In this document: in pieces, positions 2,305 through 5,895 of the stretch
How positions within the stretch are numbered: position 1 is the stretch's first letter
How the letters are laid out: each line of letters begins with the position of its first letter
Assembly (NCBI GenBank): GCA_027450125.1
Contig: DAIDKG010000074.1
Location: 1-12,869 of the forward strand
DNA from: Bordetella sp.
GTDB lineage: Bacteria > Pseudomonadota > Gammaproteobacteria > Burkholderiales > Burkholderiaceae_B
DNA length: 12,869 bases
Direction of reading: 5' to 3'
Notes under the pieces: generated by a model
What the model was told of the DNA's origin: nothing
The model's input: only the letters and a program-made list of their open reading frames with translations
Database searches by the model: none
Translations under genes and position numbers: made by a program

Positions 2305-2344
2305 ATGTCATACAAACTTTTCATGACTGTCACTGTGCAGTCAT
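2305..2344 (+). promoter_or_regulatory. Candidate Pho box (PhoB binding site)
   Basis: The PhoB consensus is CTGTCAT direct repeats at 11-base spacing. Here CTGTCAC (2327-2333), four bases, then CAGTCAT (2338-2344) match at 6 of 7 each, or 7 and 6 if the known C/T choice at the last base is allowed. A further ATGTCAT (2305-2311, 6 of 7) lies exactly 22 bases upstream, so in phase; the position between them (2316-2322) does not match. CGCAAT (2355-2360) would be a weak -10 at the usual distance of about 10 bases from a Pho box. The start codon of the metallophosphoesterase is 46 bases past the box. The same bases also form an inverted repeat, ATGACTG-N8-CAGTCAT (2323-2344), so another regulator is possible. 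Confidence 0.6.
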
Positions 2345-2390
2345 GCGGGCATGGCGCAATGCCGTCTAACCAAAACGGCACGAGTCATGC

Positions 2391-3194
2391 ATGGGTAAAG
2401 ACGCGCTGGAACCGAGCCACCGATATCGCGCAATCTGGCTGTCCGACATCCATCTGGGATCGGTAGGCTGCCAGGCCGACTACCTGCTCGACTTTCTGCG
2501 GCACAACGAGTCCGAGCACCTGTACCTGGTCGGCGACATCATCGACGGCTGGCAGCTCAAGAAGGGTTGGTACTGGCCGCAGTCGCACAACGACGTGGTG
2601 CAGAAGATCCTGCGCAAGGCGCGCAAGGGCACGAACGTGGTCTACGTTCCGGGCAATCACGACGAAGCCGCGCGCCAGTTCAAGGACATCGCGTTCGGCG
2701 ACATCCACGTGCGCGAAGAGGCCTTCCACACGACGCTTACGGGCAAGCGCCTGTGGATCGTGCACGGCGACCTGTTCGACGGCGTGATCCAGCACGCCAA
2801 GTGGCTGGCGTACCTGGGCGACACGGCCTACACGATGATCCTCGCGCTCAATCGATGGTTCAACCATGTCCGCGCCAAGTTCGGCTTCGACTATTGGTCG
2901 CTGTCGCAGTACCTCAAGCACCAGGTCAAGAACGCGGTCAATTTCATCTCGTCGTTCGAGCACGCGATGATCGCGGAGGCGCGCCGCCGCGACTGCGACG
3001 GCGTGGTGTGCGGCCACATCCACAAGGCGGAGATCCGCGAGATCGACGGCACGCTCTACTGCAACGACGGCGACTGGGTGGAAAGCCTGTCCGCCCTCGT
3101 CGAGACCTACGACGGCCAGCTCGAGATCGTGTACTGGACCGTGATGCGTTCCGCGCAAGCCTTGCCGGCGCACGAGTCAGAAGCCCTTGCCTAG
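2391..3194 (+). CDS. plcP: LpxH/PlcP-like metallophosphoesterase (COG2908), candidate phospholipase C of phosphate-starvation lipid remodelling
   Basis: A 267-residue calcineurin-type phosphoesterase. The two-metal motifs are complete and in order: SDIHLG (D19, H21), VGDIIDGW (D49), GNHDE (N89, H90), VHGDLFDG (H125) and CGHIHK (H209, H211). Automatic annotation will call it UDP-2,3-diacylglucosamine diphosphatase (LpxH). However HLGSVGCQAD and WYWPQSHNDVVQKIL resemble, from memory, the branch containing Sinorhizobium meliloti PlcP, which splits phosphatidylcholine and phosphatidylethanolamine to diacylglycerol under phosphate limitation; E. coli LpxH lacks these stretches. Context supports PlcP: a Pho-box-like site upstream, then a GT4 glycosyltransferase 27 bases downstream and diacylglycerol kinase after that. 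It is probably cytoplasmic and membrane-associated; no signal peptide is visible. The ATG at 2391 is chosen because no better in-frame start fits, though its Shine-Dalgarno is weak. Confidence is about 0.95 for the family and 0.65 for PlcP over LpxH. Confidence 0.85.
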   Translation: MGKDALEPSHRYRAIWLSDIHLGSVGCQADYLLDFLRHNESEHLYLVGDIIDGWQLKKGWYWPQSHNDVVQKILRKARKGTNVVYVPGNHDEAARQFKDIAFGDIHVREEAFHTTLTGKRLWIVHGDLFDGVIQHAKWLAYLGDTAYTMILALNRWFNHVRAKFGFDYWSLSQYLKHQVKNAVNFISSFEHAMIAEARRRDCDGVVCGHIHKAEIREIDGTLYCNDGDWVESLSALVETYDGQLEIVYWTVMRSAQALPAHESEALA

Positions 3195-3221
3195 GGCCAT
3201 TTTCCGCCAGGAGGAACACCG

Positions 3222-4256
3222 ATGAAGATCATGATCGTCACCGACGCATGGGAACCGCAGGTCAACGGCGTGGTGCGCACGCTCAAGAGCACCTCGCGCG
3301 AACTGCGCGCGCTCGGGCATGAGGTCGAGCTCGTCACTCCCCTGGAATTTCGCACGCTGCCTTGCCCGACCTACCCGGAGATCCGGCTTTCGCTGTTGCC
3401 GTACCGGCGCCTGCGCAAGCGCATCGACGCCTTCGCGCCCGACGCCCTGCACATCGCTACCGAGGGCCCGCTCGGGCTGGCCGCCCGCCGTTACGCGCTC
3501 AAGCACGGGCTGCCCTTCACCACGGCCTATCACACGCGCTTTCCCGAGTACGTGCAGGCGCGCTTCGGTATCCCGCTCTCCTGGACCTACCGCTTCCTGC
3601 GCTGGTTTCACGGCGCATCGCAGGCCGTGATGGCGCCCACGCCGGTGGTCACGCAAGACCTGGAGAAATGGGGCTTCGACAACGTCGTACTGTGGACGCG
3701 CGGCGTCGACCTGGACATCTTCCGTCCCATGGAATCCAAGGTGCTCGACACGACGCGCCCCATCTTCCTGTATGTGGGCCGCGTCGCGGTCGAGAAGAAT
3801 GTGGAGGCGTTCCTGGAACTGGATCTGCCAGGCTCCAAGTGGGTCGCGGGCACGGGCCCGGTGCTGGACAAGCTCAAGGCGCATTATCCCGACGCCAACT
3901 ACCTGGGCGTGCTGACGCAGGCGGAGCTGGCCAAGGTCTATGCCGCGGCCGACGTGTTCGTGTTTCCCAGCAAGACGGACACCTTCGGTCTGGTGCTGCT
4001 GGAGGCGCTCGCCTGCGGCACGCCGGTCGCGGCCTATCCGGTCACCGGGCCCGTCGATGTGCTGGCCGGCGGCAATGCCGGGGCCATGAACGAGGACCTG
4101 CGCCAGGCCTGCCTGGACGCGCTCAAGATCGAGCGCAGGGCGGCGCGCGCCTGGGCCGAGCGGTTTTCGTGGCGCGCGGCGTCCGAACAGTTCGCCTCGC
4201 ACCTGCGCCCGCTGCCCAAGACGGCGCGCGCGCCTACCGAGAACATCGCCGTTTGA
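3222..4256 (+). CDS. GT4-family glycosyltransferase, candidate glycolipid synthase (Agt/SqdX-like)
   Basis: A 344-residue GT-B fold retaining glycosyltransferase. The N-terminal acceptor domain opens with MKIMIVTDAWEPQVNGVVRT, whose PQVNGV loop is typical of GT4 enzymes. YHTRFPEYV (103-111) and TRGVDLDIF (159-167) follow, then the nucleotide-sugar domain with FLYVGRVAVEKN (182-193). The family E-x7-E motif appears as D253-x7-E261 in PSKTDTFGLVLLEALACG, a form I associate with SqdX and Agt-like lipid glycosyltransferases. A strong Shine-Dalgarno AGGAGG (3209-3214) sits seven bases before the ATG. Its place between a PlcP-like phosphoesterase and diacylglycerol kinase suggests that it transfers glucose, galactose or glucuronic acid to diacylglycerol at the inner membrane face. 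The sugar cannot be told from sequence. A role in polysaccharide or mannosyl-lipid synthesis remains possible. Confidence 0.87.
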   Translation: MKIMIVTDAWEPQVNGVVRTLKSTSRELRALGHEVELVTPLEFRTLPCPTYPEIRLSLLPYRRLRKRIDAFAPDALHIATEGPLGLAARRYALKHGLPFTTAYHTRFPEYVQARFGIPLSWTYRFLRWFHGASQAVMAPTPVVTQDLEKWGFDNVVLWTRGVDLDIFRPMESKVLDTTRPIFLYVGRVAVEKNVEAFLELDLPGSKWVAGTGPVLDKLKAHYPDANYLGVLTQAELAKVYAAADVFVFPSKTDTFGLVLLEALACGTPVAAYPVTGPVDVLAGGNAGAMNEDLRQACLDALKIERRAARAWAERFSWRAASEQFASHLRPLPKTARAPTENIAV

Positions 4257-4672
4257 AACCCGACCCCACTCCGCTGCCGCCCAATCCGTACAAGGGAAAC
4301 CGCGGCATCACGCGCGCCTGGCATGCGCTCAAGTACTCGCTGAGCGGCTTTCAGATCGCGATCCGCGAGGAGAGCGCATTCCGCCAGGAGCTCACGCTGG
4401 CGGCTATCCTGGTGCCGATCGGTCTGCTCGTTCCGGTCTCCCCGGTCGAGCACGCGGTGCTCGTGGGCGTCGTGCTGCTGGTGCTGGTCGTCGAGCTGGC
4501 CAACTCCGGCATCGAAGCGGCGGTCGACCGCATCTCGCTCGAGCGCCACGAATTGTCCAAGCGCGCGAAAGACCTGGGCAGCGCGGCCGTCACGGTCGCG
4601 CTCGTCAATTGCGTGCTGGCGTGGGGGTTCATCCTGGGCCCGCAGCTCTGGAACTGGGTGATGCGCCTCTGA
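4253..4672 (+). CDS. dgkA: Diacylglycerol kinase
   Basis: A 139-residue inner-membrane protein, slightly longer than E. coli DgkA (122) owing to an N-terminal extension. It phosphorylates diacylglycerol to phosphatidic acid with ATP. Diagnostic residues are intact: AFRQE, then ELANSGIEAAVDR (E81, N84, E88, matching E. coli E69, N72, E76), then HELSKRAKDLGSAAV. Three hydrophobic segments follow the family pattern, the last being VALVNCVLAWGFIL. The frame is open far upstream but has no ATG in the right place. I take TTG at 4253, whose TTGA overlaps the glycosyltransferase stop by four bases, which suggests translational coupling. Unlike most dgkA genes, it is the last gene of an operon that should generate diacylglycerol, so recycling of that product is its likely job here. 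Confidence 0.92.
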   Translation: MKPDPTPLPPNPYKGNRGITRAWHALKYSLSGFQIAIREESAFRQELTLAAILVPIGLLVPVSPVEHAVLVGVVLLVLVVELANSGIEAAVDRISLERHELSKRAKDLGSAAVTVALVNCVLAWGFILGPQLWNWVMRL

Positions 4673-4737: not shown

Positions 4738-5895
4738 ATGCGCGATTTCGAATTCCAGACCGTCCCGCACATCACCCTGTCTTATGGCGCCGCGCGCCGC
4801 CTGGGCGAGCTGCTGCGCGCCCGCCATGCCGGGCTGGCGCGGGTGTGCGTGGTCACCGACCGTTTTCTCAATACTTCCGGCCTCATCCGGCCCGCGCTCG
4901 ACAGCCGGGCCGCGCAGGGCTGGCAGGTCACGCTCATCGACGACGTGATCGCCGATCCGCCCGAGCATGTGGTGCTGGAAGCGGCGCAGCGCACGCGCCA
5001 GGCCCGGGCCGAAATCGTGGTGGGCCTGGGCGGCGGCTCCTCCATGGACGTGGCCAAGCTCATCGCGGTGCTGGCCGCGTCAGACCAGCCGCTGGGCGAC
5101 ATGTACGGCGTGGGCAAGGTGCGCGGCCCGCGCCTGCCGCTGGTGCAGGTGCCCACCACGGCCGGCACGGGCTCGGAGGTGACCTGCGTGTCCATCGTGA
5201 CCACCGGCGCCACGACCAAGGCGGGCGTGGTGTCGCCGCACCTGTATGCCGACATGGCCGTGCTGGACGCCGAGCTCACGCTGGACCTGCCCGCACCGGT
5301 GACGGCGGCCACCGGCATCGACGCCATGGTGCATGCCATCGAGGCCTACACCAGCGCGCACAAGAAGAACCCGCTGTCGGACAGCCTCGCACGGCAGGCG
5401 CTGGCGCTGCTTTCCGCGAACCTGCTGCGGGCCTGCCGCGATCCGCACGACCGCCAGGCGCGAGAGGCCATGCTGCTGGGGGCGATGCTGGCGGGCCAGG
5501 CCTTTGCCAATGCGCCGGTGGCGGCGGTGCATGCGCTGGCCTATCCCCTGGGCGGGCATTTTCACGTGCCGCACGGCCTGTCCAACTCGCTGGTGCTGCC
5601 GCACGTGCTGCGCTTTAACGCGGACGCGGCGCGCGAGCTGTACGCCGAGCTCGCAGCCATCGTCGTGCCGGCCAGCACGGGCACGAGCGCGCAGCGCTGC
5701 GCAGCCTTCATCGACTATTGCGCGGAACTGTCGCCGCAGACCGGCATTGCTTCGCGCCTGTCGGAAGTGGGCGTGGCCCAGGGCGACCTGGACCGGCTGG
5801 CCGACGATGCGATGCTGCAGACGCGTTTGCTCGTGAACAACCCGCGCGAGGTGACGCGGGCCGACGCGTTTGCGATCTACCAGGCGGCGTATTGA
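4738..5895 (+). CDS. Iron-containing alcohol dehydrogenase (group III ADH)
   Basis: A 385-residue protein of the usual length for NAD(P)-dependent group III alcohol dehydrogenases, which interconvert alcohols and aldehydes or ketones in the cytoplasm. The cofactor site is GLGGGSSMDVAK (about 96-107), followed by VPTTAGTGSEV (138-148). All four metal ligands are visible: D195 and H199 in GIDAMVHAIEAY, H265 in AAVHALAYPLGG and H279 in VPHGLSNS, close to the D196, H200, H263, H277 of E. coli FucO. I chose the ATG at 4738, which has AGGAGG (4727-4732) five bases upstream; the open frame extends further but that part overlaps dgkA. The substrate is unknown. It lies 65 bases after dgkA on the same strand, with no terminator evident between, so readthrough from the lipid operon is possible. 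Confidence 0.93.
   Translation: MRDFEFQTVPHITLSYGAARRLGELLRARHAGLARVCVVTDRFLNTSGLIRPALDSRAAQGWQVTLIDDVIADPPEHVVLEAAQRTRQARAEIVVGLGGGSSMDVAKLIAVLAASDQPLGDMYGVGKVRGPRLPLVQVPTTAGTGSEVTCVSIVTTGATTKAGVVSPHLYADMAVLDAELTLDLPAPVTAATGIDAMVHAIEAYTSAHKKNPLSDSLARQALALLSANLLRACRDPHDRQAREAMLLGAMLAGQAFANAPVAAVHALAYPLGGHFHVPHGLSNSLVLPHVLRFNADAARELYAELAAIVVPASTGTSAQRCAAFIDYCAELSPQTGIASRLSEVGVAQGDLDRLADDAMLQTRLLVNNPREVTRADAFAIYQAAY

Follow-up and report, generated by a model that had tools for sequence, protein, structure and literature searches.

The 12,869-nucleotide stretch analyzed here (the window), from contig DAIDKG010000074.1 of a Bordetella sp. assembly, carries three tightly packed genes that are predicted to encode a PlcP-type phospholipase (plcP), an Agt-type glycosyltransferase (agt) and a diacylglycerol kinase (dgkA), preceded by a candidate Pho box. 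We propose that they form a Pho-controlled lipid-remodelling operon that would act as a branch point, splitting the diacylglycerol (DAG) made by PlcP between glycolipid and phosphatidate, a reading to which we give a probability of roughly two in three. The host assembly is a metagenome-assembled genome (MAG; G000) of about 3.0 Mb that is 73% complete, and a relative, G343, is 99% complete. The Pho element, the gene coordinates, the 27-base gap between plcP and agt and the 4-base overlap between agt and dgkA, all described in an earlier note on this DNA, proved correct on re-reading the sequence:

2305-2311, plus strand: putative upstream half-site, read directly as ATGTCAT
2327-2344, plus strand: Pho box CTGTCAC-TGTG-CAGTCAT, matching 12 of 14 consensus positions of CTGTCATNNNNCTGTCAT
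2391-3194, plus strand: plcP, 267 amino acids; calcineurin-like phosphoesterase of the PlcP branch
3222-4256, plus strand: agt, 344 amino acids; GT4 glycosyltransferase
4253-4672, plus strand: dgkA, 139 amino acids; prokaryotic diacylglycerol kinase with a TTG start overlapping the agt stop

The first gene has a Pfam Metallophos match, and its product keeps all five two-metal phosphoesterase motifs intact (SDIHLG, 2442-2459; GDIIDG, 2532-2549; GNHDE, 2652-2666; HGDLFDG, 2763-2783; GHIHK, 3012-3026). Public records give PlcP relatives the LpxH label, and the homologues from Pseudomonas aeruginosa and Sinorhizobium meliloti are named UDP-2,3-diacylglucosamine diphosphatase in databases; under that name gene 1 would serve lipid A synthesis and the cluster would be a lipopolysaccharide or envelope operon. 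We see next to no chance that this is right, as it is contradicted by the model score, by a separate LpxH in the host and by the phylogeny. The window protein reaches 29.5 bits against the TIGR01854 LpxH model, far from the cut-off of 190.35, as do the P. aeruginosa and S. meliloti references (44.5 and 38.9 bits), whereas a true LpxH scoring 216.1 bits is encoded elsewhere in the MAG, on contig C171. The GNHDE motif of gene 1 stands against GNRD in all seven LpxH-branch sequences (the host LpxH and six fetched relatives). In a 28-row tree with LpxH and PlcP references, of the kind that the earlier note had proposed, 21 PlcP-like rows, the window protein among them, split from the seven LpxH-branch rows with support of 100/100. 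The note's choice of PlcP over LpxH therefore stands, and gene 1 is a predicted PlcP-type phospholipase. Over 236 positions it shares 52.5% identity with a PlcP-region protein of a P. aeruginosa plasmid, where the homologue precedes a family 1 glycosyltransferase, with a cyclase gene next in line. It is also 51.4% identical to a protein of a record labelled S. meliloti pSymB, which we do not take to be the characterised PlcP of S. meliloti. From gene order alone, the plasmid pair would be the PA3219-PA3218 region (PMC8528852). A search of solved structures with PlcP gave weak matches (best E 0.0014).

Two other PlcP-like genes were seen along the way. One, 45% identical to the window PlcP, opens a minus-strand cluster in the host assembly (G000:C330, 297-3902; L115) and is also present in G343 (L149); it is followed by DedA-like, GT4-like and GT2-like open reading frames (ORFs), named by eye from their translations, and the best Pho-box score of the cluster is 8/14. 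This is possibly a second lipid-remodelling cluster. The other is a plcP homologue (61%) on a plasmid of Mitsuaria sp. 7 (L214, 3944-7010), with ppk1, also a phosphate-related gene, immediately after it.

The second gene matches PF13439/PF00534, and its product shares 53.0% identity across 336 aligned positions with the glycosyltransferase adjoining the P. aeruginosa plcP homologue. By sequence it is an Agt-type GT4 glycosyltransferase encoded beside plcP, as the earlier note had it; judged by gene order, the reference would be PA3218/Agt1. The third gene scores 114.8 bits against PF01219 (cut-off 22.3), and residues 16-128 of its product can be aligned with DgkA chains of solved structure (E 5.1e-24). 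The undecaprenol kinases of Gram-positives also belong to the DgkA family, which leaves room for a substrate other than DAG, such as undecaprenol or the glycolipid product; against this, the top matches among solved structures carry the name diacylglycerol kinase and the core stretch VELxNSxIEAxVDRI...RAKD is kept in the window protein, making such a substrate highly improbable.

The survey of this gene order proposed in the earlier note finds plcP-agt-dgkA in 70 of the best 80 named loci, which were picked by similarity from at least 592 matching stretches and are not an unbiased sample. The order occurs in Burkholderia, Paraburkholderia, Caballeronia, Trinickia, Pandoraea, Cupriavidus, Ralstonia and Polynucleobacter, as well as in beta-proteobacteria without further classification and in one MAG that bears the name uncultured Bordetella. 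Soils and fresh waters commonly harbour Paraburkholderia, Cupriavidus, Ralstonia and Polynucleobacter, and Cupriavidus necator, a non-pathogenic laboratory species, carries the operon in locus L058. Ten of the 80 have no dgkA match; in four of them (L069, L071, L081 and L082) the locus ends within agt. With the window and G343, the 70 named loci make up 72 linked loci, and 34 of these have an in-frame ATG, GTG or TTG for dgkA that overlaps the agt stop, the frame remaining open onward. Since the open dgkA frame runs into the agt stop, the apparent agt-dgkA spacing of several Burkholderia and Paraburkholderia loci can be an N-terminal extension of DgkA.

A second survey covered 200 genomes of the taxonomic order to which the host belongs, 110 with a PlcP match and 99 with one over 200 bits (host included). 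Of these 99, 18 have dgkA at most 4 kb from plcP: on the same strand it follows plcP in 15 and precedes it in one, and in two the genes are divergent. Simple arithmetic places the two genes that close by chance in roughly 0.2% of genomes this large. Linkage was found in four of the 51 plcP genomes of family f1 (G000, G011, G026 and G050; two lists compared), and one linked genome of another family (G287, f24) has no Agt match between plcP and dgkA. Two loci of family f16 (L188 and L189) show dgkA divergent beside plcP-agt, that is, proximity without co-transcription.

The Pho box that had been noticed upstream of the operon was confirmed by a pattern in common with pstS of the same genome. When the 280 bases surrounding the plcP start (row L001) were put through 200 dinucleotide shuffles, no shuffle matched the score of the Pho box; the half-site lies 22 bases, or two 11-base steps, upstream of this box. 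The sequence CTGTCAYNNNNNNGTCAY is found twice in the host assembly, once before this operon and once at G000:C600:4255-4272 (L170), between a polyphosphate kinase gene and pstS (398.6 bits against the PstS model), the latter serving as a positive control; the reversed control pattern has no occurrence in the same assembly. Near-complete G343 has CTGTCAYNNNNNNGTCAY three times: at the operon, at what by eye appears to be the ppk-pstS spot, and at one unrelated place. With up to three mismatches allowed, the pattern shows no excess within the window (2 found, 2.34 expected), so the signal rests in the exact match. Sufficient upstream DNA was available for 78 of the 80 named loci; the score is at least 10/14 in 76 of them, at least 11 in 56 and at least 12 in 25, compared with 52, 6 and 2 of 1370 random windows from the same loci; the upstream region of the P. 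aeruginosa plasmid plcP scores 10/14. The distance from the site to the plcP start, as aligned, is mostly about 175-235 bases in the Burkholderia-Cupriavidus group, 0-11 in Polynucleobacter and 46 in the window. Taken together, these sites suggest that the operon is controlled by PhoB.

The third site in G343 (G343:C1:3422442-3422459; L171) overlaps the start of a LuxR-type response-regulator ORF in antisense and lies about 400 bases before a threonyl-tRNA synthetase gene; it is probably there by chance.

The association of plcP with dgkA likely arose more than once. We built a DgkA tree from 77 hand-picked rows out of 134 distinct ones, on 129 columns, with a warning of poor resolution. The label "near plcP, same strand", carried by 37 of the 77 rows, changes 8 times on this tree, at least 3 times forced by well-supported branches, compared with a mean of 26 for shuffled labels. 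Three genomes of families f19 and f13 have less closely related GT4s (30-34%) as the neighbours of plcP and dgkA, and their PlcPs are more distant too (44-50%), a pattern in favour of independent assembly. Repeated gain is thus likely, short of proof because each change can be a gain or a loss and so short an alignment resolves poorly.

The closest tie between the last two genes is a fusion. In two genomes of genus g12 (G011 and G050), Agt and DgkA form one ORF of 470 and 467 codons, respectively, counted from the Agt start, with GT4 domains and a DgkA domain that all exceed their Pfam cut-offs, and each genome also has a second, separate DgkA. Among the 7790 ORFs of 212 loci, only the loci of these two genomes hold an ORF matching both proteins. 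One shared assembly error behind both fusions is unlikely, because the linkers are unlike in sequence and the two genomes belong to different species. The Pho scores of the fusion operons are 10/14 (L103) and 11/14 (L108). We also considered 59 long ORFs (at least 280 amino acids) ending in DgkA as further fusions and rejected them: none has an Agt match and the seven scanned with Pfam contain a DgkA domain only, so we read them as chance frame extensions.

The earlier note had presented DgkA as an added, dedicated kinase. We reject an extra kinase of this sort for the 73%-complete MAG and for near-complete G343, as neither has a PF01219 match besides the operon dgkA. A scan of 25 named genomes found a linked dgkA in 23, and in 20 of these no further PF01219 match, indicating that the operon kinase is as a rule no addition to a housekeeping one. 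What holds of the claim is that the kinase belongs to the module, a view strengthened by the Agt-DgkA fusion and by the scattered linkage. In this lineage, the operon DgkA probably doubles as the general DAG kinase.

The operon also appears foreign to its host genus. Of 15 genomes from this genus, only G000, G343 and G348 have this PlcP at an identity of at least 91%; the PlcP of 11 others is at 61-66%, and the remaining genome has no PlcP. Six native plcP loci that we fetched from the genus show no agt or dgkA match within the fetched stretch. The window PlcP groups with Burkholderia (support 100/99), and the window DgkA falls within a 25-row clade of operon DgkAs of Burkholderiaceae and kin (99/91), while the DgkAs of 12 other members of the host genus form a different clade (100/99). 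The whole operon was probably taken up from Burkholderiaceae into a Bordetella-like lineage, with loss of the native plcP and dgkA.

The protein families, operon layout, Pho box, linkage, fusion and single kinase copy are read from sequence, and from them we infer substrates, regulation and a branch-point role. Low phosphate would activate PhoB and switch the operon on. PlcP would cleave phospholipid into DAG and a phosphorylated head group, and Agt would transfer a sugar, probably glucose or glucuronic acid, onto DAG to give a phosphorus-free glycolipid. DgkA would convert DAG that escapes glycosylation into phosphatidate, returning it to phospholipid synthesis and preventing DAG accumulation; this route would cost ATP while permitting exchange of the head group. 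Agt and DgkA would thereby compete for one substrate, in a ratio fixed by a shared mRNA, or by a shared polypeptide in the two relatives, such that enough anionic phospholipid is kept and the remainder replaced. DAG made by PlcP must be neither wasted nor built up, which bears on how phospholipid removal is reconciled with membrane integrity during phosphate starvation, and a kinase tied to a DAG glycosyltransferase, fused to it in two genomes, offers a concrete and testable control point.

The chief alternative is that dgkA travels as a housekeeping passenger, a general DAG kinase co-transcribed with plcP-agt that has no specific role in remodelling. General DAG kinases recycle DAG that remains after the modification of osmoregulated glucan or lipid A. 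Such a duty fits the MAG, G343 and 20 of the 23 linked genomes, each with a single PF01219 match, and also the 56 of 99 plcP genomes whose listed dgkA lies away from plcP. Against a passenger stand the linkage on scattered DgkA branches, the start codon overlapping the agt stop in 34 of the 72 linked loci and a fusion present in two genomes that retain a second DgkA; we consider this alternative unlikely, though a good deal more credible than the LpxH or non-DAG readings.

Several observations weigh against the branch-point operon itself. DgkA sends DAG back to phospholipid, the opposite sense to remodelling. Besides the 56 genomes just mentioned, 17 of the 99 lack a dgkA match and in 8 the match could not be placed, and the start/stop overlap is missing in 38 of the 72 linked loci. 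The label changes on the DgkA tree may include losses, on 129 columns and a hand-picked 77 of 134 rows, and the source MAG is only 73% complete. Pho support is weaker in family f1, where 15 of 29 upstream regions (L086-L114) reach 5% against shuffles. Strict Pho control of dgkA is unlikely, because the sole DgkA of most linked genomes is needed without starvation too. In Pseudomonas putida, DagK is not among the proteins listed as absent in the mutant in the available portion of that report (PMC5082522).

A wider proposal builds on the branch-point operon and is more tentative, at somewhat under even odds: Agt-DgkA would be a device for partitioning DAG, as coupled genes in Burkholderiaceae and as a bifunctional glycosyltransferase-kinase in g12 with a fixed split between glycolipid and phosphatidate, and would have been assembled more than once. 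In the lineage of the window, the imported module would have taken over the function of sole DAG kinase, placing general DAG recycling under phosphate control.

Remodelling by plcP-agt is already known. In P. aeruginosa, PA3219-PA3218 are adjacent genes with a Pho box, and the glycolipids MGDG and GADG are reported to be made through PA3219 and two glycosyltransferases (PMC8528852, as far as its available text goes). The window operon resembles that pair in its plcP-agt genes and Pho box, with proteins 52.5% and 53.0% identical to the plasmid pair; no dgkA is annotated within 4 kb on the plasmid stretch, where the gene table is incomplete, whereas dgkA overlaps agt in the window. In marine bacteria (PMC4796936) and Methylosinus (PMC9239053), plcP is described with agt, expression or deletion affects glycolipids, and Pho boxes were predicted in the marine set (PMC4796936). 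The word "kinase" appears nowhere in the main texts of these two papers. A grouping of DagK with PlcP as PHO-dependent lipid remodelling has already been reported for Pseudomonas, in P. putida BIRD-1, by a paper whose available portion does not state gene order, coupling, fusion or the kinase family of DagK (PMC5082522). Among the papers listed by searches of an open library, we recognized none describing the plcP-agt-dgkA order or the Agt-DgkA fusion; a Burkholderia cenocepacia phosphorus-stress study lay outside this search and may already describe the operon, so priority cannot safely be claimed.

The genes flanking the operon in the window are the following:

846-1724: LysR-type regulator gene, beyond the PACE gene and on the strand opposite to it
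1810-2262: PACE-family (chlorhexidine-type) efflux gene, directly upstream of the operon
4738-5895: iron-type alcohol dehydrogenase gene, downstream of the operon

The PACE gene adjoins the operon in locus L006 as well.

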